Below the pieces are notes generated by a model, which did not search any database, was not told where the DNA came from, and worked only from the letters and a program-made list of their open reading frames with translations. A stretch of 64,000 nucleotides of DNA from Pseudomonas viridiflava (GTDB taxonomy: Bacteria; Pseudomonadota; Gammaproteobacteria; Pseudomonadales; Pseudomonadaceae), in contig UVIF01000002.1 in assembly GCA_900596015.1 (NCBI GenBank), positions 310,001 through 374,000 on the forward strand, read 5' to 3'. A program made the translations under genes and the position numbers. How positions within the stretch are numbered: position 1 is the stretch's first letter; each line of letters starts with the position of its first letter. Below are positions 27,076-41,716 of this stretch, one piece after another.

Positions 27076-27430
27076 TATTCACCTAAATTGAAGTGGTCAC
27101 CTCCTAGTCTTTTAAGCGGGTATCTCATGCAGCCAAAAAGTCGTTTTTACTCCAACTCCTTTAGGTGCATTAACCCTAGCTCATCAAGCAACAGCACCGG
27201 CCATCACCATAGCTGTGACCTCGTCGACACCGGCGCCAACAGCCCGCAAGCTCAGCACAAGATCTGTGCCTGTTGGTGGTGAACGCACCACATCGAGGTA
27301 TTCGGTCCTAAAACACTCCCTCCGTCCGTTTTCGGTAGAAAAGGTCCGGTGTGACTACCAAAACGCCAGGGTTCAGCTATAGCTTCATATACAGTCTTCA
27401 GCTAAACACTCCTCTCAAAGAGGCTACAAA
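27076..27430. other. Leader region of the hydrolase-caspase cassette
   Basis: No gene is supported in these 355 bp. CCTCT-CAA-AGAGG at 27411-27423 forms a small hairpin whose right arm is the Shine-Dalgarno sequence AGAGG of the gene starting at 27431. The stem is short (5 bp), so any effect on translation would be mild. An A/T-rich stretch with CATATACAGT around 27386-27395 could hold a -10 element. Confidence 0.4.
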
Positions 27431-28639
27431 ATGCCAATTATTTTCGTTCACGGCGTGAATAATCGAGAGGAAGATGCGGACTACGCAACGTCCCGTGCTC
27501 GCATCGACAAATCACTGCGCAGCATTCTGGCACCAGAGCTTGGTATCGATGCAAAAGCACTGATCGTATCGTTCCCCTACTGGGGAGGTGATGGCGTGAA
27601 ATTCCGCTGGAATCAGGCATCGCTCCCAACGAGCGAAAGTAATGTTCAGGCATTGAACCTCAAGCTGACCGGGTTACAGGCCGTCGAATACGAATTGTGG
27701 ATACAGGAAGTACAGGCGCAAAATGGCGGTGCACCCGTGGTACTGGGGAATATCAGCTTACAGGACAAGGGTTTTGAGAAAGCTGTGGATCTGGTGTGGG
27801 ATGCGGCTTCGATGGTTGCACAGACTGAAGAGGCTTACCAGGAAGTACTCGACCGTTATGAGGCGTCGCGCCAATTAGCAGCCAAAGAAATACCGCCATG
27901 GGCGATCCAGCGACCCCCATTAACCAATCGAGAATTCGTCGGCAGACTCAATCAAGCGATTGTCCTACAGCCAAACGCAGCCGATGGGCTGGCGGTTCAA
28001 TCAATGGGGTTAAAAGATTGGTGGGCTTCATTGGGCGAAGCTGTCAGTCGGTTGGGCTCGGCTCCCAGTGATGCAGTCACCGCCCTAGTCTTGTCCCGAG
28101 CTCGCGAATCGTTGCATGCCAACGCAACGCGTTTCCTAGGCGATATCTTCGTTTACCTCAATACTCACCAAGGTGAAAAGGCACCCGGCGCCATTGCGAG
28201 TGTCGTCATGAAAGCCTTGAAGGAAGCCGACCAAGTTCGCACGAAGGGTGACGATAAACTGATCGTCATTGGCCACAGCCTCGGCGGAGTCATTCTTTAC
28301 GACATCCTCACGTACTTTGATATGGAGACCAAGGTCGATCTCTTTGCCACAGTTGGCTCGCAAGTTGCGGTGTTTGAAGAAATGACTCTGTACCGCGCAA
28401 GCAAATCGGACGTACCTCCTAACCCGTCTTTGGAACGTCTGGACATGCCACCAAACGTTGGAACGTGGGTCAACGTCTTCGATACAAATGACATTTTTTC
28501 TTTCCGTGCGGAAGGGGTCTTCAATGGCGTGAAGGATTATAAATTCGATACTGGTTATGGGGCTCTGGAAGCCCACGGCGGTTACTTCGCCAGACCCAGC
28601 TTCTATAAACGACTGGCCTTAAGCCTGAAGGGTATTTGA
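27431..28639 (+). CDS. Alpha/beta hydrolase, lipase-like, first gene of three-gene cassette
   Basis: The 402-residue protein begins PIIFVHGVNN (oxyanion-hole HG motif). The nucleophile elbow is GHSLGG at 281-286 (Ser283), followed by Asp351 or Asp354 (VFDTNDIF) and His382 (LEAHGG), a complete Ser-Asp-His triad. A large insertion of about 200 residues (from about 60 to 260), rich in helices, separates the first strand from the Ser elbow and could form a lid or partner surface. There is no signal peptide, so it is cytoplasmic. It resembles DUF676/PGAP1-like serine hydrolases. The next gene begins one base after its stop. The target (lipid, ester or protein) is unknown. Confidence 0.8.
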   Translation: MPIIFVHGVNNREEDADYATSRARIDKSLRSILAPELGIDAKALIVSFPYWGGDGVKFRWNQASLPTSESNVQALNLKLTGLQAVEYELWIQEVQAQNGGAPVVLGNISLQDKGFEKAVDLVWDAASMVAQTEEAYQEVLDRYEASRQLAAKEIPPWAIQRPPLTNREFVGRLNQAIVLQPNAADGLAVQSMGLKDWWASLGEAVSRLGSAPSDAVTALVLSRARESLHANATRFLGDIFVYLNTHQGEKAPGAIASVVMKALKEADQVRTKGDDKLIVIGHSLGGVILYDILTYFDMETKVDLFATVGSQVAVFEEMTLYRASKSDVPPNPSLERLDMPPNVGTWVNVFDTNDIFSFRAEGVFNGVKDYKFDTGYGALEAHGGYFARPSFYKRLALSLKGI

Positions 28640-28640
28640 A

Positions 28641-29834
28641 ATGCCGCCCCTCTTTCTTTCGCAAGCAGTGCAAGACAATCCCACGTCGACGGCAACCCAC
28701 GTTTTACTGGTCGGTTGCGGTGAATATCCGGCCATGGCACAAACGGAATATTCCAGTGTGCAGCCTTTGAAATCGCCTCATACCTCTGTTCAGGAGATGG
28801 TGAACTGGTATCTGGCTGGATCAGATGCCATGCCAATTGGTCAGGGCAAAAAGCCTCACGAAGCTTTTTCTAACTCGGATGCACCCCTGGGATCAGTCGT
28901 CGCTCTCGTCTCTCCTTCACTCAACATTCAAACCCCACCGGGGGGCAATGTGGCCTGTGAGCGGCCTACACTGGCCAATATTAGACGAGCTTGCATCGAG
29001 TGGACTGCACGATTGGGGGCCAACCCCGAGAGCGTCGGCGTGTTCTACTTCTGCGGGCACGGGGTCAGCGATGGTGTTAACCAGTTTTTGATCGCAGATG
29101 ATTTCGGTGAAGACGGTGTCACATGGGCTAATACTTTCCATGTCTCTAATACCCGGAATGCAACCATCCGGGCGACGAGTGCGCGGATAGTCTATGTGAT
29201 CGATGCCTGTCGGGAATTCAGTGATGATGTTCTGAACCAGTTTGACATCCCCTGGGGACTGACCGGGAGCTCAAGAAAAGGCCCGATCACCAGTGCTGGG
29301 TCGGCAATTCTGCGGTCTACTTCTGCTAACCGCCTTGCCTACACGCCGAATATAGGTGTGACCTATTTCACCCAAGCGCTGCTACAGGCACTTCGTGGAC
29401 ACTGCGGTGAAGAGCGGGACAATGCCCCAGGTGTGTTCGACGTCAGGCCGTCGGAGCTGCAAACGGCAACAGCCTCATTTTTGAATCACCTGTTGCTCCT
29501 ACAACCCAGCCTGCAACAACACGTCGCTTTTGAATGCGAAGGAACGCATTCGATCGCTTTGAATGTCCTAGACCGTAGTCCGGACGTACTGGTTGAAATG
29601 GATATTGATCCACCAGTGCTGCGCCATGTATCTCAAGCGTACGTTCAGAACCTCCAGACAGCTCGTGAACTCAAGCCACTCGTCAATGGACCTGCATCGT
29701 TCATAGTAGCTCAAGGTGAATGGGATTATGGCGCTGAGGTCAAGCAGAACGGCTATCAGGTGACACCAAGACATCGCTATATGGACGGAGGAATTTTCCG
29801 TGCTAGCCTCACAGCCGAAAGCGTGATTCCGTGA
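28641..29834 (+). CDS. Caspase-fold (C14-like) protease, second gene of cassette
   Basis: The 397-residue protein has the caspase-hemoglobinase fold signatures: VLLVGCGEYPAM near the N-terminus, the catalytic histidine in YFCGHG (His140), and the catalytic cysteine in VIDACREF (Cys190). Both of the His-Cys dyad are present, so it is likely active. The C-terminal ~130 residues after the protease domain are unassigned and may bind a partner. There is no signal peptide or membrane segment. It starts 1 bp after the hydrolase gene and overlaps the next gene. Bacterial caspase-like proteases often act in conflict or cell-death systems; that role here is inference. Confidence 0.85.
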   Translation: MPPLFLSQAVQDNPTSTATHVLLVGCGEYPAMAQTEYSSVQPLKSPHTSVQEMVNWYLAGSDAMPIGQGKKPHEAFSNSDAPLGSVVALVSPSLNIQTPPGGNVACERPTLANIRRACIEWTARLGANPESVGVFYFCGHGVSDGVNQFLIADDFGEDGVTWANTFHVSNTRNATIRATSARIVYVIDACREFSDDVLNQFDIPWGLTGSSRKGPITSAGSAILRSTSANRLAYTPNIGVTYFTQALLQALRGHCGEERDNAPGVFDVRPSELQTATASFLNHLLLLQPSLQQHVAFECEGTHSIALNVLDRSPDVLVEMDIDPPVLRHVSQAYVQNLQTARELKPLVNGPASFIVAQGEWDYGAEVKQNGYQVTPRHRYMDGGIFRASLTAESVIP

Positions 29835-31249
29835 TGACAATCCTGACTGTTTATATCGGCGACCCGGAGAGGACTGACTCAAGGCTCCCGACGTTACCAT
29901 TTGAAGTGTTTTCAACCCTTGGGGTACGCCTGGGCAAGGGCACCGCCTCACCCGGCAAACCGGCAAAAATAAAATTGCGCGATGAACGCGCCACGCAATC
30001 CGGACGGGTTTATGTCTCGGCCAAACTGCCAAACGGAAAGCAGGTACAGGAAGTTGCTGAGTTGCTGAACGGCCACGGCGAAGTGACGCTCTTGCAAAGC
30101 ATTCATACCCCAAGCGATTGGCTGGAGTGGCTTAAACCGTTCCGCTCTCTGGAGCATCTGAACGCCTCGGTGCAGTTCAAATTCTCGTCCGACGCCTCGC
30201 AGCGACGGGTCGGAGAGGTGTGGAGAATGGTTTGGGCCCTGAACAATGGAAAGTGGGAAGCCTCCGACCTCGAACCGTTAACAACGCAAAAGGTAGGTAC
30301 GATCCAGCAATTCTGGTTCGATGTACCCAACCGGCCGCATTTGCTGCAAATTGGCGGCGAAGACGTTGCCTGGCGAATCATCTCACTACCGCCTGGTGGG
30401 GTAGTGCGTGTGGCACTGACCCCCAGTGACCAGGAAATCGGTAATTCGATGGATATCACCATCGGAAGCTGGGACCCTGACAACGAACTCATCATGTCCT
30501 ACCTAGCACGCGGCGCCATGGAGCAAGTCACCAGTCTCGTAGATGCTTGGCAAACCGCTGATCAAATGTTGCCACTTAAAGATCAAGATCCGGTGGGTGC
30601 GGTGTCATGCGCTTATGTACTGTTAAAATTGCGCCGTCTGGAACAGCATCGTGGCTGGATGGACAATCTGGTGACCTCATTCCCTCACATGGCTGACGCC
30701 GCTATCGTTTCTGCCGCCTTTCTGCTCCAGGATGAATTCCCGGATGAATCGCTGATACGTGACCGCATCAAACAAGCCCTTGAAAACGGATTACCGGTAT
30801 TTACCCTAGGCGCTACGCTCCTAGTGGAGACCATGGCGGCCATTCATTGCGGCGAAGAGGAATCAGCCGAATTTAAGACCAATTATCTGAAAGCCCAGAC
30901 CTATGCCCAAGCGATCTGTACGCACGGGACATACTTTGCCTTTTACGCCACTAACCCCCGAAACCCCTCGAAACGCCCTACTTACGGTGTGCAAAACGCA
31001 CCCAGATCGACACCACGGGATTGGGTGGACGAGCTTAAAGCTCTTCGGGATTCATTTCGAAAGCTGATCGCCACTCAGCACGCGGGTTATGCCGCTCAGT
31101 TTTCCCTGGACATCATCAATCGCGAAGCTCGTGTAGCGCTGAATATCCCTGAAATGGGCGCTGCCGAACTAAAGGTATCACTGAAACTGGAAGTGCTGGA
31201 CGAGGTTCGAGCCAATCAAGCGGCCGTCATTATCTCCGGGGAGCATTGA
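29834..31249 (+). CDS. Uncharacterised protein, third gene of hydrolase-caspase cassette
   Basis: I do not recognise this 471-residue protein. The N-terminal ~220 residues look beta-rich (VYIGDPERTD, GRVYVSAKLPNGKQV, FWFDVPNRPHLLQIGG, PGGVVRVALTP). From about 230 on it appears helical (GAVSCAYVLLKLRRLEQH, MADAAIVSAAFLLQDEFP), perhaps TPR-like repeats. There is no signal peptide, transmembrane segment or nucleotide-binding motif. The ATG overlaps the caspase stop by one base (TGATG); a GTG three bases earlier is an alternative start. The coupling suggests a regulatory or sensing partner of the two hydrolases. Confidence 0.7.
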   Translation: MTILTVYIGDPERTDSRLPTLPFEVFSTLGVRLGKGTASPGKPAKIKLRDERATQSGRVYVSAKLPNGKQVQEVAELLNGHGEVTLLQSIHTPSDWLEWLKPFRSLEHLNASVQFKFSSDASQRRVGEVWRMVWALNNGKWEASDLEPLTTQKVGTIQQFWFDVPNRPHLLQIGGEDVAWRIISLPPGGVVRVALTPSDQEIGNSMDITIGSWDPDNELIMSYLARGAMEQVTSLVDAWQTADQMLPLKDQDPVGAVSCAYVLLKLRRLEQHRGWMDNLVTSFPHMADAAIVSAAFLLQDEFPDESLIRDRIKQALENGLPVFTLGATLLVETMAAIHCGEEESAEFKTNYLKAQTYAQAICTHGTYFAFYATNPRNPSKRPTYGVQNAPRSTPRDWVDELKALRDSFRKLIATQHAGYAAQFSLDIINREARVALNIPEMGAAELKVSLKLEVLDEVRANQAAVIISGEH

Positions 31250-31416
31250 CCCTGAGAGACGCTAACCTGACCATGCCAAAATACACCAGATCGGCATTTG
31301 ACCTGAGCTGCAACTGCTCTATAGCGAGGTCAGCCGTTGGCAAGCGGCCTTGCCGCTGATGCTTAGTTGCTCGGCCCCTTACCAGTGCCTCCAGATGGCA
31401 TCACTACTTAGCGCAA

Positions 31417-32082
31417 CTAGTTCGCATGGAGGCTGGACGGTAGTAGCAATCCGCCCGTGGCTACCCTTGCCCATCCTAGGACCAATCCAAGAATGAACAT
31501 CAGCCAATCGGTGGGTGTGTGGATGTAGCCGGAGTGAGCGTGCCAGAACATCAGAGCGGTCACGAACACGGTGACTGCTGCGAGCCGCTTCGAACGTTCG
31601 ATGGGCACTGCGGTCAACAGGAAGTGCCGGTAGGCCAGCTCTTGAACTATCGGCGGCAGAACGATCAGTGATGCTATCAGCCAACAGTACTGAGCCCGCG
31701 TCATCCCAAGGCCGAGAAACTACATGACAGGCTCTCGCCCGTTCCCTACCGCCAAAGTTACAGCGATGCAGACGGTGTACGACGCCAGAACGGCGACAAG
31801 GCCTATCGCCCATTGTCGCTTGGTTACAACGCCCAAAATCGAAGACGCAGGCCGTACCAGTCACCAATGCACCGTCAATATCCAGCACAGCACCACTACA
31901 CTGACGCCGCAGATAGTCAGTACTGGATACCTGAGGAGCATCAGAGACGATGCGGTTTCCTGAGTGTAGCCAACGATCCAACGGTACAGCAGGAAGATGG
32001 CGGAACCCGCCGCAAGCTTGCTGATCCAAAGCAGCCACAAGTTAGTTGCCGGAACAGAAACATCTCAGCTAGAAGCCTTCAT
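31417..32082 (-). pseudogene. Degraded CPBP-family intramembrane metalloprotease
   Basis: One reading frame of 222 codons, starting at 32082, encodes a hydrophobic protein. Its C-terminal half has the CPBP (Abi/CAAX protease-like) motifs QELAYRHFL, FWHAHSGY and SLHAN. The frame is interrupted by three stops: TGA at codon 6 (32067-32065), TGA at codon 74 (31863-31861) and TAG at codon 121 (31722-31720). Each is one substitution from a plausible sense codon (CGA, TGG, CAG). The first motif has Gln where the family usually has Glu. The start overlaps the stop of a 56-residue membrane-protein gene by ATGA. The gene is dead unless the stops are suppressed. Confidence 0.8.
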
Positions 32083-32249
32083 GAACCTGTACCCGGAAGC
32101 TTGAACGCGCTAAGCCGCCCTACGAACGCAGAAAACACGAACGCCTCGGCAGCCGCATACCCACGGTCTATCCAACCCGTCCAAACAGCGACGGCTGTCG
32201 CCACACCGACTACAGCTCCCATCAACAATCGCACACCCAGGATAGTCAT
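32079..32249 (-). CDS. Small membrane protein upstream of CPBP pseudogene
   Basis: The 56-residue protein MTILGVRLLMGAVVGVATAV... has one or two hydrophobic segments (about 2-22 and 33-46). A very strong ribosome site (AGGAGG, 7 bp before the ATG) precedes it and it overlaps the CPBP frame by 4 bp. It was probably the first gene of a two-gene operon with the CPBP protease. It is itself intact. Function unknown. Confidence 0.55.
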   Translation of the reverse strand: MTILGVRLLMGAVVGVATAVAVWTGWIDRGYAAAEAFVFSAFVGRLSAFKLPGTGS

Positions 32250-32687
32250 CCGCAACCTCCTACCTTCCTTTACCTTCTGAGGCAGGTGGCTGGCGTAGAC
32301 GCGCATTTCCTCTTCCGAACCATCCTGCGTCGCTGTTCCTCTCGATCAGGGGAGCCCTGAAACCCATACACAGTTTGTACGCATGTTTCGAGCTTCACAG
32401 GTATCTCGCCTGAGGTCTTCCAGTACTGGCCCGCCTTCAAGGGCTCCATGTTCGCGTCGAACCGTTCTGGACGTGCAGAGCCTTCACGGATGTTTACGGG
32501 CGATAATTCCTTTGACATGAGCCAAATCCATAGCTGGGAAAGGTCTCCGCAAGTGAAATAACTCTCTCATCGCCTTGCGACTAATGTACCCCGTAAAGGG
32601 GACAAACATGGTGATTTCCAGCGCCCACGGTTTACCTTTCAGCGTATTCGCCAGAAAAACGGTTGCTCGCCCGAGCCCTTTGAAATA
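32250..32687. other. Region with weak leftward reading frames
   Basis: Two overlapping leftward frames are open: 32270-32518 (82 residues, containing NMEPLKAGQYWKTSGEIP) and 32484-32699 (71 residues from an ATG inside the LexA box, containing PWALEITMFVPFTGYISRK). Neither has a Shine-Dalgarno sequence or a family I recognise. The second would start within the SOS box, which argues against normal expression. They may be remains of one or two decayed genes. Confidence 0.3.
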
Positions 32688-32703
32688 CTGTTTATGCATA
32701 CAG
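32688..32703. promoter_or_regulatory. LexA (SOS) box of rulAB
   Basis: CTGTTTATGCATACAG, within TACTG...CAGT, fits the CTG-N10-CAG LexA consensus with extended flanks. It lies about 150 bp upstream of the rulA start, a little far but with no gene between in that direction. It predicts DNA-damage induction of rulA and the remains of rulB. Confidence 0.8.
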
Positions 32704-32852
32704 TCCACTGAGATTTGCAACGCCCATGGGCTTGCTATCCGTATGCCCCCAGCTTGCTGAGGTGATCGTGATAGCCAAAAAGCGGTCGGCAGAGACATAC
32801 CTGCATCTACCTTTGACGACTTTCAACCCTGCTTTCAACTGCGGTGCCTGTT

Positions 32853-33284
32853 ATGCCTCCTATCATCCTTGCTCAGATAGAGCCTTCCCAGACACAACTT
32901 CCCTTTTTTGCCCAACGGGTACCAGCCGGGTTTCCATCTCCGGCAGCTGATCATCTGGAAAAGCAAATTTCGCTGGATGAACTGTTCGACATCCGTGCAC
33001 CTCATGTGTACTTAGTGAAGATTGAAGGCGAAAGCATGATGGGTGCCGGTATCTTTGACGAAGACTTAGTCATTGTTGATCGCGGCCGGGAAGCGCAGCA
33101 CGGTGATATCGTCATCGCGGCGTTGAATGGTGAGCCGGTGTGCAAACGTCTGCATATCAAAGGACGAGAGATTAAACTACAATCCGAGAACACAGCCTAC
33201 CCACCGCGCTTCATATTGAAAACCGACGAAATGCTTGTTTGGGGAGTCGTCCGCTATAGCGTGCGTGATCATGCCTACGCATAA
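32853..33284 (+). CDS. rulA: UmuD-like polymerase V accessory protein
   Basis: The 143-residue S24-family protein has the self-cleavage serine Ser61 (EGESMMGAG) and lysine Lys98 (PVCKRL). The cleavage site is probably Ala25-Gly26 (VPAGFPSP). RecA filaments trigger removal of the N-terminal arm, after which the dimer joins UmuC/RulB in translesion synthesis. The ATG at 32853 was chosen; a GTG at 32844 is an in-frame alternative. It overlaps the rulB start by 14 bp as in plasmid and island rulAB operons. The protein looks intact although its polymerase partner is broken. Confidence 0.92.
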   Translation: MPPIILAQIEPSQTQLPFFAQRVPAGFPSPAADHLEKQISLDELFDIRAPHVYLVKIEGESMMGAGIFDEDLVIVDRGREAQHGDIVIAALNGEPVCKRLHIKGREIKLQSENTAYPPRFILKTDEMLVWGVVRYSVRDHAYA

Positions 33285-34549
33285 GCAAGTGTTCGGTTTG
33301 GTAGACTGCAACTCGTTCTATGCTTCGTGTGAGCGGGTCTTTCGACCTGACCTGGCCAAGACCCCTATAGTAGTATTGAGTAATAACGATGGGTGCGTAA
33401 TTGCAAGAAGTCACGATGCTAAACCCTTCGTAAAATGGGCGCACCCTACTCCAGATCAAAGATATGTTGCGGCGTGAAGGGATTGTGGCATTCAGCAGCA
33501 ACTACGCGCTATATGGCCAAATATCCAAATGCGTCATGACCATTATCGAAAGTATGGTAGCCGGGTCGGAGGTTTATTCTATTGATGAGATTTTTTGTGA
33601 TCTTAGTGGCCGACGCGAAGATCTAACGATACTGGGCCGCTCAATCCGTGAAAAAGTTCTAAGATGCACCGGAATTCTAGTAGGGGTTGGCATTGCACAC
33701 ACTAAGACGCTGGCTAAGTTGGCCAACCACACAGCTAAGCGATTACAAGCTCAAACTGGCGGTGTAGTTGATATCTGCGAGCCGCACAAACGTAATTGGG
33801 TTTTGCGTAACACGGCTGTCGGCGAGGTATGGGGGGTCGGTCGACGACTCAATGCGCACTTGGAGGCCATGGGCATCCGGTCAGCCATGGACCTGGCCAA
33901 GACTGACAAGGTCACGATCGGTCGGAAATTCAGTGTGGTCCTGGAACGTACCGCCCGCGAGCTCGCTGGTGTGTCGTGCCCGGAGTTGCATGAGCCTGAT
34001 CCGCCCAAGCAAGAGATCTGCTGCAGCCGAATGTTTGGCAAACGCATGAGCGAAATCGGGCCCATCAAGGAGGCAGTGGCCACCTACACAGCGCGAGCTG
34101 CTGAGAAACTGCGTGCGCAAGGTTCGGTGTGCAAGAAAATGCGCGTGAGTGCGCGCACCGGCATGTTCAATCCTGACGAGGCGAAGTATGCCAACGGTGT
34201 CGTGATCGAGCTGCCCTACGCTACAAATGACACTCGGCTGATGACCGATGCCGCTACATAGGCAGTTGACCATATTTTTCGCCCCGGATATCGCTACAGC
34301 AAGGCAGAAGTGATGCTGCTCGATCTGCGTCAACCCGGTGAATACACAAGCGATCTTTTTGCCCTAACTCAGCCGCAAACGTCCGATCAATTGATGTCTG
34401 TCATGGACTCGATCAACAGTCGGTGGGGACGGGGGACGTTGCGAACGGCGACTGTGCCTACCACGCCGGAATGGGCCATGCGGCGCGATCTGATGAGTCA
34501 GAGCTACACCACGCGCATTGACCAGCTATGGAAGGCCAGGTGTAACTGA
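33271..34549 (+). pseudogene. rulB: Broken UmuC-like DNA polymerase V catalytic subunit
   Basis: It starts MPTHKQVFGLVDCNSFYASCERVF, the Y-family polymerase N-terminus. After KPFVK at about 33420-33435, two one-base deletions (an A lost from the run before TGGGCG, and a base lost before CCAGATCAAAGATATG) move the frame. The protein resumes at MLRREGIVAFSSNYALYG with SIDEIF, VGVGIAHTKTLAKLANH and VWGVGRR. A TAG at 34259-34261 interrupts it again, followed in frame by AVDHIFRPGYRYSKAEV and a normal C-terminus ending near 34549. With three lesions it cannot make active polymerase unless the sequence is in error. Confidence 0.9.
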
Positions 34550-35137
34550 AAAGACAGTACTACCTGCAAGGCGCAGCAGAAAACAATCAATGAACTTGTA
34601 GGCTTTCCAGTATAGAGCTTAGATAACGGCCTATCCATGGCTCCTGCCATCACGACCTGCCAAGGAATGGAACCAAATGGCAGCCGATCAGCTATCACAA
34701 CAAGTGGGACTGTAGGTTACTCAACGCTATGAGCCACATTCTCAATAAAGCATGTTAGAAGGTGATGCCGACATTGCTGCGCGTTCATTTCCCAAACGCA
34801 GCAGTATGAGAGCTGCCCGAAACGCTAGGGTGGATAACTCACTACAAATAAAGGGCGAGCGCTCCATAAACCCCACTGAAGTGAAAATAAGTGGCTCGCT
34901 TAGCTGGGCGATGCGAGTGAGTAGTTCCACGGCAGCAAGATTTCGTAGTATTCAACCAATGTTGCCGTCGGTAGGACTACAGCCCAATGTAGAGGCCTCA
35001 AATTGGAAAAAAACCATTGTTTATTTTAGACCTGCCCGCTTTCACAAGAGGATCAGGCCTTCTCTGAAAATTGGGTGAGTATTCGTAGTGCTATTGCATA
35101 CCTGCTCAACCAACTATACCTACATATTATTTCGGGC
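34550..35137. other. Gene-free stretch after rulB
   Basis: In 588 bp only short frames are open. A leftward frame at 34742-34930 (62 residues, with VGFMERSPFICSELSTLAFRAAL) looks protein-like but I cannot assign it, and it has no good ribosome site. The base composition shifts toward A/T near 35000. Probably decayed DNA. Confidence 0.35.
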
Positions 35138-36091
35138 TTACGGATTTATCAAAGTCGGGATCTCATACTCAATATACTCAATCTTAAACTCTTTATTGCT
35201 GATAGTCGCGACATAGAATTTTGCATCAGGGTTATTCTGCCTAGCGGCAGCAATAATTAACAGTCTTTTATCAGCAGGCAGCTTTGAGCCGAAAGTTATT
35301 GACTTGATTGAATTCGGCTGTATTTTTACCTTGCCTTGGGTAAATGTCCTTATCCTTATTTCACGCTCGTGTGACCACAATGTAGCCTTTGTGGTAAACA
35401 TAGTTAAGCTCTGAGAATTAATCCACCTTTCCTTATAATACGCTTTCCATTTGCGAACATGTGCGGTCGCATCGATCAGCTCCGGATCATCTTGATACCT
35501 TACGAATGAAGAACTGATGCACTTAAGTTGCTTCAGCTTCAATGGATCATAGGTAATTTTTACACCCCGTAGACCATCACCATAGTGACTCCAAAGACTG
35601 ATATCCTGATGGTTTCTATGAATAGAATCTATCCTGTATTGCTCAGAAGCAATAGAAGCATCTACTACCGCTTTGTCATTTTTAGGAACACTCAAAGCAC
35701 AGAAGAAACCGTCAGTTTTTGAGTTCCTTAGCATCACACATTCATATTTCTGTATGTGCTCCTTTATCTTACTTTCAATAACCCCAACAGGATCTATCTG
35801 ATACTCAGCATATTCATGCTTTATCGCAGGATGACCATAGTCGACATTTTTCTCATCATTGAAAAATATATGCTCTGCACAAAACACACTATTAATATCC
35901 AGATTTGTATCGATCTTGTATGTTAACGACCCCTCGAACGGGTCGTTGAGGCTATCGAGTGCTGCAAACCATAGATAGTTTTCTGCAATCATTTCCAATG
36001 TATTGTTATTGTAAGGCTTGAATTTGTGTATTGCCTCCAGATCATCCAGTACCGAGTTATCTGCATCAAAGAATCTCAGCTCCGCATTCAT
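35138..36091 (-). CDS. DUF2971-family protein
   Basis: The 317-residue protein has the DUF2971 landmarks: IHKFKPYNNNTLEMIAENYL, WFAALDSLNDPFEG near residue 40-55, FFCALSVPKNDK, LWSHYGDGLRGVKITYD in the middle and TTKATLWSHEREIRIRTF toward the end. A GAGGGGG ribosome site precedes the ATG. The gene is clearly more A/T-rich than its neighbours, a sign of recent acquisition. DUF2971 proteins are frequent cargo of mobile and defence-rich islands, but their biochemical role is not established. Confidence 0.82.
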   Translation of the reverse strand: MNAELRFFDADNSVLDDLEAIHKFKPYNNNTLEMIAENYLWFAALDSLNDPFEGSLTYKIDTNLDINSVFCAEHIFFNDEKNVDYGHPAIKHEYAEYQIDPVGVIESKIKEHIQKYECVMLRNSKTDGFFCALSVPKNDKAVVDASIASEQYRIDSIHRNHQDISLWSHYGDGLRGVKITYDPLKLKQLKCISSSFVRYQDDPELIDATAHVRKWKAYYKERWINSQSLTMFTTKATLWSHEREIRIRTFTQGKVKIQPNSIKSITFGSKLPADKRLLIIAAARQNNPDAKFYVATISNKEFKIEYIEYEIPTLINP

Positions 36092-36833
36092 AGATACCCC
36101 CTCAGCTCTGGTTAAAATGTAAAAATCTTGTTCATTTTATTTGAGTGATCTACCACATTATACCACTATGAACGCAAGTTAGGGTCAGGGATTGGTTAAT
36201 GCGGGATCTTTCAAACATGGTGCTTACTCTCAAGCCCGCGGCGTCCATATCAAGAACCGAAGACACGTGCGCGGGACACTCCGTAGTAAATCCTGCAGCA
36301 CGAATTGCGTCATCGCCTATGTAACGGCCCAGCAGGCGTGTTACCGCCATCTGATAACCTACCAGGTCCAGCCCAATCACAAAGCTACCGTTGAGCGACA
36401 AGCGCAGCGCCATTGGCCACAGACAGAAGCAATGTTCATGCTTCGCCGACCGCTCATGATACCTGTCGTTTCGCAAGGCCGTGCTCAAAGTAACTCCGCG
36501 CCGAGTAGACAGGCCTTCTCAGAGGATCAGCTTTCACAAGAGGCATTGCGGGACTTATCTGACGAAGCCTTGAACGCAGCCAATTCGCATCCGCGGTCGG
36601 GTTGCGTTGGAATCAGAGGTTAGCGCCAAGGGCTTCAACCTAGCTGACAATGTCTTGCAGCACTAGTTGCTGCGGCCCCGCTGCGGGGCTGGGCGTAAAC
36701 AGCAGCGATGCCACGTGCGCGAGTGAGCGAGACTCGGTTTTACTTGGCGCTTGCAAGCCTTTCACTATAACGGGTATATATCACCAGAATCGTTCCACCT
36801 CTGCAACAACCAACTACCAAGGAAAGGCATCAA
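36092..36833. other. Unassigned region between DUF2971 and secreted protein genes
   Basis: The 742 bp hold two overlapping opposite frames: 36192-36623 rightward and 36150-36488 leftward. The leftward one contains RLSLNGSFVIGLDLVGYQMAVTRLLGRY, split by no stop. Neither has a recognisable family or a good ribosome site, and both may be remnants. A short GC-rich hairpin (GGCCCCGCTGCGGGGCT at 36675-36691) might be a terminator arm but lacks a T tract. Confidence 0.3.
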
Positions 36834-37388
36834 ATGCAGCCGAGTGAAGCAGTAAAACGCGTGGGACTGACCATCGTGATCACCTATGGGATAATCACGG
36901 CAGCTGTAGCATTTGCGGATGCCGAGAAAGCTGATTCAGATGAGCTGATCAGCTATCAATGCTACAACTTCGCTTCGCCAGAGCTGGGCGCACTTATCAT
37001 GGACATAAAGGCTTGCGATGCGGAAGATCAGCTCCTGAACCATAACCCAGCCCCCCTGAAAATGATTTCCGCGAAGGGGTTCAAGGACGGAGTCGCAGGC
37101 GTCTTTAAGAAATTCAGCCTACATATCAACAAGAACGCTGAAATCGCATGCAACGACCATATTCAATTCCCGAACGTATCAGGAGGTGGCTGCTTAGTCA
37201 CTGTTTATGTTAGCCGCCGCCGTACCAATAATAATTATTCTGAGCTAGCGGGCTGGCCGGCAATCTGGTTTCGCGGCGTTCAAGAATCAGAGTTTCGTCC
37301 AATGAACACGGTTGCACAATATCTTTCTACAGCCGATCAGAAATTCCTTAAGAAAGGCGGTATTGTGGATATTGGCGATAGACCATGA
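36834..37388 (+). CDS. Hypothetical exported protein
   Basis: The 184-residue protein has a hydrophobic N-terminus (about residues 9-27, VGLTIVITYGIITAAVAFADA) that looks like a signal peptide. A cysteine-containing periplasmic domain follows (ISYQCYNFASPELG, IKACDAEDQLL, NAEIACNDHIQFPN, GGGCLVTVYV). AAAGG lies 7 bp before the ATG. I do not recognise a family. The paired cysteines suggest disulfides. No obvious partner gene is adjacent. Confidence 0.6.
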   Translation: MQPSEAVKRVGLTIVITYGIITAAVAFADAEKADSDELISYQCYNFASPELGALIMDIKACDAEDQLLNHNPAPLKMISAKGFKDGVAGVFKKFSLHINKNAEIACNDHIQFPNVSGGGCLVTVYVSRRRTNNNYSELAGWPAIWFRGVQESEFRPMNTVAQYLSTADQKFLKKGGIVDIGDRP

Positions 37389-37570
37389 GCCCCGTCACTA
37401 AGATCTTGACCATGCTGATCCTGCTTCCGCGAAGAGAATGAAATTCGCTGAGGAAAAAGCGAAACGCTTCCTTAAAAAATGGAAGTGAGAATCTGCTGTG
37501 TTCAAGGTAAAACTATGAGTCAACAGTCTGCTGGGCTAACACCTTAGTCCTTTTTGTTGGAGAGGGAATT

Positions 37571-37900
37571 ATGAGCATGAGTGATCGATACAGATTGGCA
37601 CACGAAAAGTATTTTTCGACTAATCCAAAGGAAGTGGCTGACATTGAATCAGTAAACCCGAAAATGCTTGAAAACCTAGGAATCACATTCGAGGAATGGT
37701 GCGTAAATCAGCGTTATTTAGCTTTCTCGAAAGCCGCTGAAGCTTATGGTATGCGAGAAGACGAATTTGTAATTCATTTGATGGCTGAGTCGCCACAGCA
37801 GGCCCAAGCATGGCGCTTGGAGAACCATCGGAGAATTGCAGATACCTTAAACATACCATGGGATGAGTATTTGCGATTGAATGGCCTGTCCGAGCACTGA
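37571..37900 (+). CDS. DUF6388-like small protein
   Basis: This 109-residue soluble helical protein has the pattern RYRLAHEKYFSTNPKEVADI, LGITFEEWCVNQR and HRRIADTLNIPWDEYLRLNGL. That matches a small Pseudomonas family I believe is DUF6388. GGAGAGGG precedes the ATG. The gene ends 4 bp before the start of a degraded umuC fragment, so a recombination junction lies right behind it. Function unknown. Confidence 0.65.
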   Translation: MSMSDRYRLAHEKYFSTNPKEVADIESVNPKMLENLGITFEEWCVNQRYLAFSKAAEAYGMREDEFVIHLMAESPQQAQAWRLENHRRIADTLNIPWDEYLRLNGLSEH

Positions 37901-37904
37901 GCAG

Positions 37905-38587
37905 TGCCAAGAGGTAGCAATTGTAAAAACGTAGAGCTTACAGGCTGGCAACTGGCGAACGCAGATCCAGAGTACTTGCTCAGGGAGTTCAACGTGAACG
38001 TTGAGCTAACCGCACGCGAGCTGCTGAAAAGGTCATGCATCATGGTCGCTGAAAGAAGGCTAGACCAAGGCCATGATCATCTGTAGCCGTAGCTTCGGCA
38101 GCAAGGTCAAGTCGTGGGATCATCTCAAATAATCAATGGCCGCTTCAGTGACCACTGCGGCCGGAAGGCTCATGGCCAAGCTAAGCTTTGCCAATTGGGT
38201 GCAGGTCTTGGCCCGAAACAGCCCATTCGCTCCTGGGTAGCATTATGCGGGCTCCCGAATCGTTTCCATGTCCGACCCCATCGAAGACACGCGCGACTTG
38301 CTGAACGCCGCGCTCTGAGGCTTGGAGAGCATCTATCGGGAAGGGCCTGCCTACACAAAGTGTGGGATTGTCTATCCCGATTCTCGCAACGAGACGCGAT
38401 CACCTAGGATGTGTTCCCCCCGCCCCCCGAGCCCACAGCGAGGGCCTGATGGCCGTGATGAATGACAAGCAGGGGCGCGGCACTGTACGGCTGTGTCGAG
38501 ATGCCTCAGTGAGTCTGGCGGATGAACAGGAGATTTCTGTCATCTGCCTACACAACATGCTGGCAGGATCTACCCGTAGCCTGTTGT
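37905..38587 (+). pseudogene. Second umuC/rulB remnant (C-terminal half)
   Basis: Pieces of a Y-family polymerase can be read in order: GWQLANADPEYLLREFNVNV and ELTARELLKRSCI (37940-38040); then MIICSRSFGSKVKSWDHLK, stop, AGRLMAKLSFANWVQVLARN with SPFAPG, stop; RIVSMSDPIEDTRDLLNAAL, stop; GLESIYREGPAYTKCGIVY. APRAHSEGLMAVMNDKQGRG with TVRL follows, and the terminus SSAYTTCWQDLPVAC ends at 38587. Frame changes and at least three in-frame stops (TAA, TAG, TGA) show long decay. The N-terminal half, including the polymerase active site, is missing. It is less decayed-looking in composition than its surroundings and more GC-rich than the rulB at 33271, so it is an independent copy. Confidence 0.8.
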
Positions 38588-38623
38588 TGATTGTTGGCAG
38601 CTGGCCAAGGACTAGGCGGGATG

Positions 38624-39250
38624 TCAGAAATCGACCTCTCGAATAACGTTCCCAACCTGGCCGCCTTCCGGTACCCGCGTTCGGTTCACGTCATACTGTA
38701 CTTGAAGCCTGTAACGGCCACTGTGAATAGATAGGGAGTAATAGAAAAAACGCTCGGTTCCGAACTTTTGCTCACGACCTTCTCCGAGCAATTCCTCGAA
38801 TGGGCCCATTCGTGATCCTTGCAGCATGAAGGCAAGGGTACCAATGGTACAATCTTTGTTACCTGAAATGCAAAGACGCAGGTATTCAATAGCCTCGCGT
38901 TCGCCAGATTGGCGCTTCTGCTCAGTCAGCACCTCATCTGGACTAGGCAACGGGTACCCCAACGAAGTGTGGCTCGCGTTAGCGGCAGCCGCGGCACGTG
39001 CTTGCTCGATCCTTGCAGCCTCGGCTCGCCTTCGCTCAAGCTCTCTAGCTTCCTTAGCAGCGACCTCATGGCGATAGACTTCTGAGGCATGCGTGTCCGC
39101 CAAAGAGTCCATACGGTTATTCGAACAGGGTGTTGCCTGGAAGACTTTTCTCTCGTCCTGTCCAAGACAACTGTAAATGGGTGCAGCGAACGTGCTGGTA
39201 GCGCACATTGCGAGCAATACGGCACTGACTACTTGGTCGACTTTCCTCAT
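38624..39250 (-). CDS. Hypothetical periplasmic protein, DUF4124-like N-terminus
   Basis: With the start at 39250 (MRKVDQVVSAVLLAMCATSTFA) the 208-residue protein has a signal peptide ending near TFA-AP. IYSCLGQDERKVFQATPC follows, resembling the DUF4124 pattern. Then comes a charged helical stretch at about 45-85 (KEARELERRRAEAARIEQAR, probable coiled coil) and a C-terminal domain with LRLCISGNKDCTIGTLAFML. Function unknown. It follows a gene for another orphan protein in the same direction. Confidence 0.55.
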   Translation of the reverse strand: MRKVDQVVSAVLLAMCATSTFAAPIYSCLGQDERKVFQATPCSNNRMDSLADTHASEVYRHEVAAKEARELERRRAEAARIEQARAAAAANASHTSLGYPLPSPDEVLTEQKRQSGEREAIEYLRLCISGNKDCTIGTLAFMLQGSRMGPFEELLGEGREQKFGTERFFYYSLSIHSGRYRLQVQYDVNRTRVPEGGQVGNVIREVDF

Positions 39251-39260
39251 AGTCCCTACT

Positions 39261-39692
39261 TTACCGTCCAGTATCAACATGGGCAGAAATAATATGGGCG
39301 CAAATCGCCCTACATGTGAGCTTCAATTGCTCGATTGTATCCACCGATATCTCCACTTCACCTGCCGACTGCTGCGAGGTCGACCCAACTTGTCTGCTAC
39401 CTACGAACGTATGACTAGGGTCGAATTTTGAGCACAAGCCTACACGCAGGCTGGAGCGCGCCAGCCAATACGATTTGGGGAATGACAGAACGTCCTTGGA
39501 TTTCCGGAAAGCGACGACATCATGGCGCGCACCATTGTCATCAGTGAATCGAAAGAGCAGCGTTTCTGTATTCGACTTGCCTAGAGGTTTCAGGCCCGCC
39601 TCGCGGAGTATATCGAACAGCTCTCGAAACCGACCACCGGACTTCCCAGCGCAAAACGATTCGACCTTCTGATCAGTGATTGTTTCTGCCAT
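39261..39692 (-). CDS. Hypothetical protein
   Basis: This 143-residue protein (MAETITDQKVESFCAGKS...) has no signal peptide or membrane segment. It contains FRELFDILREAGLKPLGKSN, TLLFRFTDDNGARHDVVAFRK and LSFPKSYWLARSSL, which read like a compact alpha/beta fold. I do not recognise the family. It ends 10 bp before the start of the exported-protein gene at 39250, so the two may be co-transcribed. Confidence 0.5.
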   Translation of the reverse strand: MAETITDQKVESFCAGKSGGRFRELFDILREAGLKPLGKSNTETLLFRFTDDNGARHDVVAFRKSKDVLSFPKSYWLARSSLRVGLCSKFDPSHTFVGSRQVGSTSQQSAGEVEISVDTIEQLKLTCRAICAHIISAHVDTGR

Positions 39693-40050
39693 TCTTGTAG
39701 TCCTTTAGGTTATTAATCGAGTGCCTGGGCTGCCTATCGGCAGCATTGGTTGGAGGTTAGGGCCATTCAACGTTCAGGATTGTAACTCTGCCCAACCCAT
39801 GAGCTAGGGACAAGCTTTCGCGCGGTCGAGACGGGAGGACAACGAACGTACCATGAGATGCGACATCGGACATGGACAGCACTGCAATGGACTACAAACC
39901 TGCAAACGACCCTACAGAACCCGTGGCGCTGGCTTAATGCCTGAAGTGTCAGTGTGGTGATGTCGTGCATTGAACGCTTTATGGATGATACCGGCCGAGC
40001 TGATATTGAGAGATTTCGTACCACTGAGTTTCCCGTATCGTCGGTCGAGA
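39693..40050. other. Spacer before the IS3 element
   Basis: No gene is supported in these 358 bp. The IS left terminal repeat starts at 40051, and I see no 3- or 4-bp target duplication (AGA before, GCT after the element). Confidence 0.4.
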
Positions 40051-41285
<1,235 letters not shown>

Positions 41286-41626: not shown

Positions 41627-41716
41627 TGGCGGTGAAGAAGGGATTCGAACCCTTGATACAGTTTCCTGTATACACACTTTCCAGGCGTGCTCCTTCAGCC
41701 ACTCGGACACTTCACC
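41627..41716 (-). tRNA. tRNA-Ser (GGA anticodon)
   Basis: The 90-nt gene reads leftward from GGTGAAG (acceptor 5' arm) to CTTCACCG plus an encoded CCA (41629-41627). The anticodon loop is CCTGGAAAG with GGA. There is a long variable arm (GTGTATACAGGAAACTGTATC) as expected for serine tRNA, and the T arm GGGTTCGAATCCC. Its 3' end points toward the accessory island, the usual side for tRNA-targeted integration. Confidence 0.95.

Follow-up and report, generated by a model that had tools for sequence, protein, structure and literature searches.

A caspase and alpha/beta hydrolase operon with a CanB-like partner in Pseudomonas viridiflava, a candidate Canu-like conflict system

Layout and predicted functions of the three genes

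We analyzed a stretch of 64,000 nucleotides of contig UVIF01000002.1 from Pseudomonas viridiflava (the window, whose positions are used for all coordinates below), which carries three adjoining genes on the forward strand that we tentatively read as a Canu-like conflict system. Gene A (27431 to 28639) encodes an alpha/beta hydrolase of 402 residues, gene B (28641 to 29834) a caspase-fold protease of 397 residues and gene C (29831 to 31249) a CanB-like partner of 472 residues if translation starts at a GTG codon, or 471 from the ATG at 29834. The list of open reading frames agrees with the original prediction, made from this sequence alone, that all three genes are intact, with a single base between A and B and a 1-base overlap between the B stop and the ATG start of C; the overlap grows to 4 bases with the GTG start. 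In a Pfam scan of the trio B alone exceeds a family cut-off. Among the PADLOC models (2023 release) B matches the generic "caspase" model (5.4e-9), and A and C have no match in that release, which predates Canu.

A copy of the trio in Pseudomonas sp. H1h encodes proteins that are 78% (A), 81% (B) and 76% (C) identical to those of the window. Comparison of the window with the H1h locus gave a sole DNA match, from 27352 to 31252 on the forward strand (79.5% identity), which comprises the trio and about 80 bases 5' of it; the match does not extend into the flanks, which makes the trio the unit that the two genomes have in common. The dN/dS values between the two copies are 0.15 to 0.19 (NG86) and 0.18 to 0.23 (YN00), and measured against that of H1h the window trio evolves under purifying selection, in line with the selection that had been proposed for it.

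The caspase-fold assignment of B is borne out by a match to Peptidase_C14 (PF00656; 2.8e-9, 37.5 bits against a cut-off of 21.4). Its dyad, His140 (29058 to 29060) and Cys190 (29208 to 29210), lies where it had been placed by the original prediction, and Gly139-His140-Gly141, Asp154, Asp188 and Cys190 are invariant in 17 of 17 aligned relatives. A PDB sequence search with a profile of B returned no match at an E value of 0.1.

Gene A combines the alpha/beta-hydrolase fold with a GxSxG elbow and a Ser-Asp-His arrangement. The GHSLGG motif with Ser283 (28277 to 28279) and His382 (28574 to 28576) are both found at the claimed positions, Asp351 and Asp354 are the candidates for the acid residue and no obvious signal peptide is present. 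All 12 aligned relatives of A keep these four residues, as well as His7 and Gly8, without change, and the six positions are also invariant in a five-row alignment that includes the copy of genome G458. All Pfam matches of A are to alpha/beta hydrolases and sub-threshold, no single family passing its cut-off. The structural model (pLDDT 64.1) pairs an alpha/beta-hydrolase core with a long insertion that is disordered in part, the confidence being low at residues 56 to 100 and 183 to 228. A lipase of Bacillus subtilis was the top match of the fold search (Z 13.7 over 166 residues), followed by the DDHD-type NirD domain of Nir2 (Z 13.2 over 226 residues) and LCAT (Z 12.9), matches that lie within Z 1 of one another and are treated as ties. 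A thus resembles DDHD phospholipases, the Nir2 DDHD domain and B. subtilis lipase A in fold and catalytic layout, at an identity of about 14 to 19% in the structural alignments. The Pfam DDHD family (PF02862) is not listed for the window A at an E value of 1, and one of 12 relatives, that of Rhizobium ruizarguesonis, matches it at 4.2e-6 with 27.5 bits, below the cut-off of 28.3. PDB sequence searches gave no match with a profile of A at an E value of 0.1 and weak rows only with profile A6 at 5, the best at 0.02. Judged from the model, A is likely to hydrolyze lipids, and alpha/beta hydrolases are named as membrane-lipid effectors by Kaur et al. (2021, PMC8195603). The hydrolase of Sinorhizobium fredii NGR234 diverges right after His382, probably through a frameshift. 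We weighed a conserved LGxIS motif within the insertion as a possible site of cleavage but abandoned it, as Gly106 is not invariant.

For C no Pfam family exceeds its cut-off. Its AlphaFold model, of low confidence (mean pLDDT 53.8), shows two beta domains followed by a helical region and agrees with the predicted beta-rich N-half and helical C-half. Residues ~5 to 391 (29831 to 31003, forward strand) are common to the rhizobial orthologues and that of genome G182, and residues ~392 to 472 (31004 to 31246) form a C-terminal tail shared with H1h; a longer tail takes its place in the other aligned trio members, whose C proteins have 545 to 550 residues against 472 in the window and H1h. These tails differ, yet in seven aligned trio members they have a loosely similar short end, of an RAxxA type followed by hydrophobic residues. 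A PDB sequence search with a C profile at an E value of 1 gave one row at chance level, and the fold search gave no PDB match at 0.001. Its best rows, CnaB/Ig-like or transthyretin-like domains (E values of 0.006 to 0.2), were not used as evidence, given the pLDDT of 53.8. In viral contigs, alignment A1 of C gave 75 pattern matches and no relative.

Recurrence of the trio and its caspase-MBL sister loci

The co-occurrence check bears out that the trio recurs as a unit: A, B and C lie together in 15 loci, window included, of Gammaproteobacteria, Alphaproteobacteria, Actinomycetota and Deinococcota. Besides the window, H1h (L002) and G182 (L011), these comprise plasmid loci of S. fredii NGR234 (L006), Agrobacterium pusense (L007), S. 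meliloti (L008) and Rhizobium etli (L010), and loci of Embleya (L027), Komagataeibacter (L028, with the hydrolase in two frames), Bradyrhizobium barranii (L029), R. ruizarguesonis (L033) and G458 (L064), the caspase of the last being recognized by its His and Cys motifs. In the remaining three, from G545 (L017), A. leguminum (L018) and Deinococcus (L019), B and C form one protein. The weakest C assignments are those of L033 (4.6e-6) and G458 (1.2e-6). Plasmids account for most of the loci found, in part a consequence of searching a plasmid collection.

Thirty plasmid records contain a match to A, and the trio is present in 10 of the 14 neighborhoods that were examined. A caspase match is found in 21 records, and in all 12 examined a C-family gene adjoins it. 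Among 398 sampled genomes of Pseudomonadota, C occurs in four and full-length A in three, all three beside C; the fourth C adjoins a gene for a metallo-beta-lactamase (MBL) protein. Any match to A is found in 24 of these genomes, 21 of which hold partial matches, mostly to the GxSxG region, that were dropped before full-length A was counted; three of the dropped genomes (G445, G607 and G678) nevertheless carry a caspase adjoining the hydrolase. The caspase profile matched 91 of the 398 genomes at 1e-6, with at most four candidates scored per genome; four full-length caspase matches are all in the profile by construction, and this count is not used as evidence of co-occurrence. The trio-only profile A1 was the first to detect G510 and G545. 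Within the family of the host, C is present in 2 of 298 genomes and as one 66-residue fragment with stops, and in the genus around G182 full-length A is confined to G182 itself (1 of 99). The trio is therefore rare and patchy. Correlations between the distances of A, B and C gave Spearman coefficients of 0.67, 0.69 and 0.53 over 13 loci (78 non-independent pairs, with host relatedness still included).

Six further loci carry a caspase, a C-like middle protein and an MBL protein: those of G510 (L016), S. americanum (L020), B. barranii (L021, with a DUF2235 protein upstream), Caballeronia (L023), R. leguminosarum (L024) and A. tumefaciens (L025). Two of the six MBL proteins were scanned with PADLOC and matched LmuA (4e-65 and 4e-71) and Avs1a (4e-44 and 4e-43), and the other four are BLAST relatives of these two, so that by sequence similarity the MBL proteins are assigned to the Avs1a/LmuA family of gated nucleases.

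The middle proteins of these loci provide the link to C. A hidden Markov model built from the six middle proteins alone gave the window C 71.7 bits, whereas the highest-scoring of 200 shuffled versions of C reached 3.7, and in the reverse search from C the six proteins scored 35 to 72 bits with the best shuffle at 5.7. Profile-profile comparison (hhalign) gave a probability of 99.3% with an E value of 9.9e-21 over 143 columns, whereas control comparisons with two unrelated family alignments gave 0.1 to 0.2%. One BLAST alignment spans residues 57 to 359 of C, with E values that apply to a small set. These sequence comparisons make C a homologue of the middle proteins of the six loci, and the claim that it belongs to no recognized family holds for Pfam but not beyond it.

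The caspase-C-MBL loci have the layout of Canu (CanABC; Tuck et al. 2025, Science, PMC12799240), which consists of the caspase CanA, the middle protein CanB and the pro-nuclease CanC. Its authors demonstrated a CanA-CanB complex, activation of CanC and defense against T4; Canu lacks an NTPase, has dda as its trigger and was described with the nuclease as the only effector. Like Canu, the trio is a three-gene operon of a caspase with a His-Cys dyad, a partner related to the middle protein of the caspase-C-MBL loci and an enzyme as the putative effector, lacks an NTPase and is found among defense genes; unlike Canu, its effector would be an alpha/beta hydrolase rather than a gated MBL nuclease, and the C proteins of its closer members bear an additional tail. 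No MBL gene corresponding to CanC is present in the trio, which should therefore be called Canu-like and not Canu. In the host's own genome profile A9 gave one partial match only, a 766-residue frame on another contig (9.4e-8) that is probably ComEC. The MBL profile identified eight loci in viral contigs, and neither these nor four further plasmid MBL loci (L074 to L077) showed a match to B or C.

A tree built from 21 caspases over 376 columns places the MBL-type caspase of L016 with the hydrolase-type caspases of L017 to L019 at a support of 0.93, the deep nodes being weak (0.08 to 0.87). Effector types are intermixed in this tree, a hint at effector exchange.

A Canu-like mechanism and its alternatives

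The reading that we favor, at a little short of an even chance, is that the trio is a Canu-like conflict system, probably directed against phages, in which B and C drive A as a lipase-like effector. By analogy with CanA and CanB, the caspase and the CanB-like protein would form a sensing and protease complex, and A would take the effector slot held by the CanC pro-nuclease. Infection would switch on this complex, which would then cleave or release A, and active A would hydrolyze membrane lipids, killing the cell or halting its growth in time to prevent phage spread. The disordered insertion of A may act as a natural gate, as in CanC, and the cutting of A by B would be the main step. Complex formation, sensing of infection, activation of A by B, the lipid substrate and defense itself are parts of the mechanism that we infer; the reading is based on co-occurrence, the homology of C, the conserved catalytic residues and the B-C fusion in three loci.

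Several observations weigh against it. In four of the 14 examined plasmid neighborhoods of A relatives (L026, L030, L031 and L032) neither a caspase nor a C match lies nearby, and A is thus not always accompanied by B and C. Gene order differs as well, A lying upstream of the caspase and the MBL gene downstream. The connection of C to CanB runs through the six Canu-like loci and not through the Klebsiella CanB (KaeCanB) itself, the model of A is of middling quality and is no proof of a gating loop, and among the sampled genomes only G458 is fully independent of profiles A5 and A6, G000, G510 and G545 being in one or both.

C, or B and C together, could instead be the sensor for two parallel effectors, the caspase acting on proteins and an uncut A acting on lipids, which we regard as unlikely. 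According to Kaur et al. (2020, PMC7159879) a caspase lies beside an alpha/beta hydrolase in VMAP and GAP1-N1 conflict systems, and the two are proposed to operate together. Such hydrolases of the wider family adjoin caspases in layouts with a different third gene, both there and in G445, G607 and G678, and some relatives of A have no caspase, all of which suits parallel effectors. The Canu caspase, however, activates the effector of its own operon (PMC12799240), and a C-family protein is common to both. The pairing of caspase and hydrolase is a likeness to the VMAP and GAP1 systems that is insufficient for membership: in the window the third gene is CanB-like, unlike that of VMAP systems, and a Pfam scan of the trio and 10 island frames (31382 to 41282) found no VMAP-C, MoxR ATPase or vWA domain.

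We give little credence to C being the substrate, with the caspase freeing its variable C-terminal tail as or for an effector and A regulating the complex. A conserved core with an exchangeable tail (472 against 545 to 550 residues) would fit such a role, as would the core in L009, which continues into two trypsin domains plus a PLD domain, and that in L033, which continues into a pYEATS domain. Yet the tails of the trio members have no family match at an E value of 0.001, and a tail of this kind is absent from the C proteins of the MBL type.

That the cassette serves plasmid or transposon maintenance in an addiction-like manner, and not phage defense, seems to us quite improbable: the loci were found mostly on plasmids, in a search of a plasmid collection, and the H1h copy lies beside TnsB/TniB/TniQ-type genes, but no separate antidote-like gene is present and known defense genes are neighbors. 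A module for cellular stress or programmed death with no role against mobile elements is very improbable: a role as death proteases is often considered for bacterial caspases (PMC8195603), but the distribution is rare and patchy and the trio block has been transferred exactly between unrelated flanks.

In a further reading A is a caspase-activated lipase, and one bacterial chassis of caspase and CanB-like protein has swapped its killing arm repeatedly, the alternatives being a DNA nuclease, an enzyme that hydrolyzes membrane lipids and a polyprotein of protease and PLD domains; the window would then hold a bacterial, gasdermin-free counterpart of caspase-driven membrane destruction. We put this forward tentatively, as somewhat less probable than not.

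Genomic surroundings, related systems and significance

In several genomes the trio lies among defense-type genes. PADLOC-matching neighbors are present in 4 of the 15 trio loci, namely a retron XI reverse transcriptase-protease (L011), Ppl (L008), QatA (L018) and a candidate PDC-M49A (L002), and in three of the six MBL loci, namely LmuB (L024), IetS (L021) and SspA/DndA (L020). These neighbors were picked by annotation and then scanned with PADLOC, with no background rate, and are supportive only. In H1h the trio follows TnsB/TniB/TniQ-type transposition genes at about 0.6 kb.

The island of the window had been described as one in which most neighbors are broken. This holds for umuC, split into two frames (33235 to 33477 and 33464 to 34261), and for a transposase in three pieces (40091 to 40423, 40537 to 40830 and 40788 to 41285), but not for a DUF2971 gene, an intact frame, or for the umuD-like gene, which stands intact beside the umuC split by a frame change (32844 to 34261). 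This split transposase remnant and a tRNA-Ser (gga) gene (41627 to 41716) lie close to the right-hand border of the low-G+C stretch, and the frames to the left of the trio read by eye as a transporter operon.

Other arrangements were observed around related caspases. On plasmid pBb1S5b of B. barranii (L009, 8887 to 14253), a protein of 1788 residues joins two trypsin domains and a PLD domain to a C-like core; a caspase gene immediately precedes it and a metallopeptidase gene lies upstream, possibly forming a protease cascade; the C protein of L033 carries a pYEATS domain. Next to the caspase-C-MBL genes of G510 (L016, 1816 to 6086) are a HETTH-motif frame, a patatin-like phospholipase and a further frame, without a Pfam match, whose sequence suggests another MBL protein. 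A patatin-like phospholipase gene is also found divergent to the locus of S. americanum (L020, 5812 to 6849). On B. barranii plasmid pBb38S5b (L021, 5904 to 6950) the gene annotated as DUF2235 precedes the caspase, C-like and MBL genes, perhaps making this a locus with two effector genes. In Deinococcus p96k (L019, 603 to 2156) a gene annotated as belonging to the thiol-activated cytolysin family precedes the hydrolase and the caspase-C fusion by a few kb. In G607, G445 and G678 (L108, L109 and L110) a longer caspase is followed by a short alpha/beta hydrolase, with no C match within 16 kb, and this pair is a separate layout.

The gated nuclease-protease pairs Avs1a, LmuA and HamM also place a protease and an effector enzyme in one operon, and their MBL family provides the effector of the sister caspase-C-MBL loci; they differ from the trio in using a trypsin-like protease and NTPase sensors where the trio has a caspase. 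A literature search, sparse in subscription journals and preprints, found no prior description of the exact cassette of hydrolase, caspase and CanB-like protein. The pairing of caspase and hydrolase is already known from VMAP systems and the layout of caspase, CanB and effector from Canu, and we regard the trio as a variant within a known class of systems. The original prediction had offered either a new architecture or an orphan protein acting as the sensor. The second guess fits the homology of C and the fusion of B and C in three loci, and the first is not supported, the caspase-hydrolase pairing (PMC7159879) and the NTPase-less Canu layout (PMC12799240) having been described before.

If the chassis does drive a lipase-like effector, the choice of effector would be modular in bacterial caspase immunity, and a second killing mode, acting on membrane lipids instead of DNA, would become testable. 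CanB-like proteins would then be a mark by which further effectors could be found. The Canu-like reading also offers a concrete hypothesis for an unannotated operon on the much studied symbiosis plasmid pNGR234a and others.

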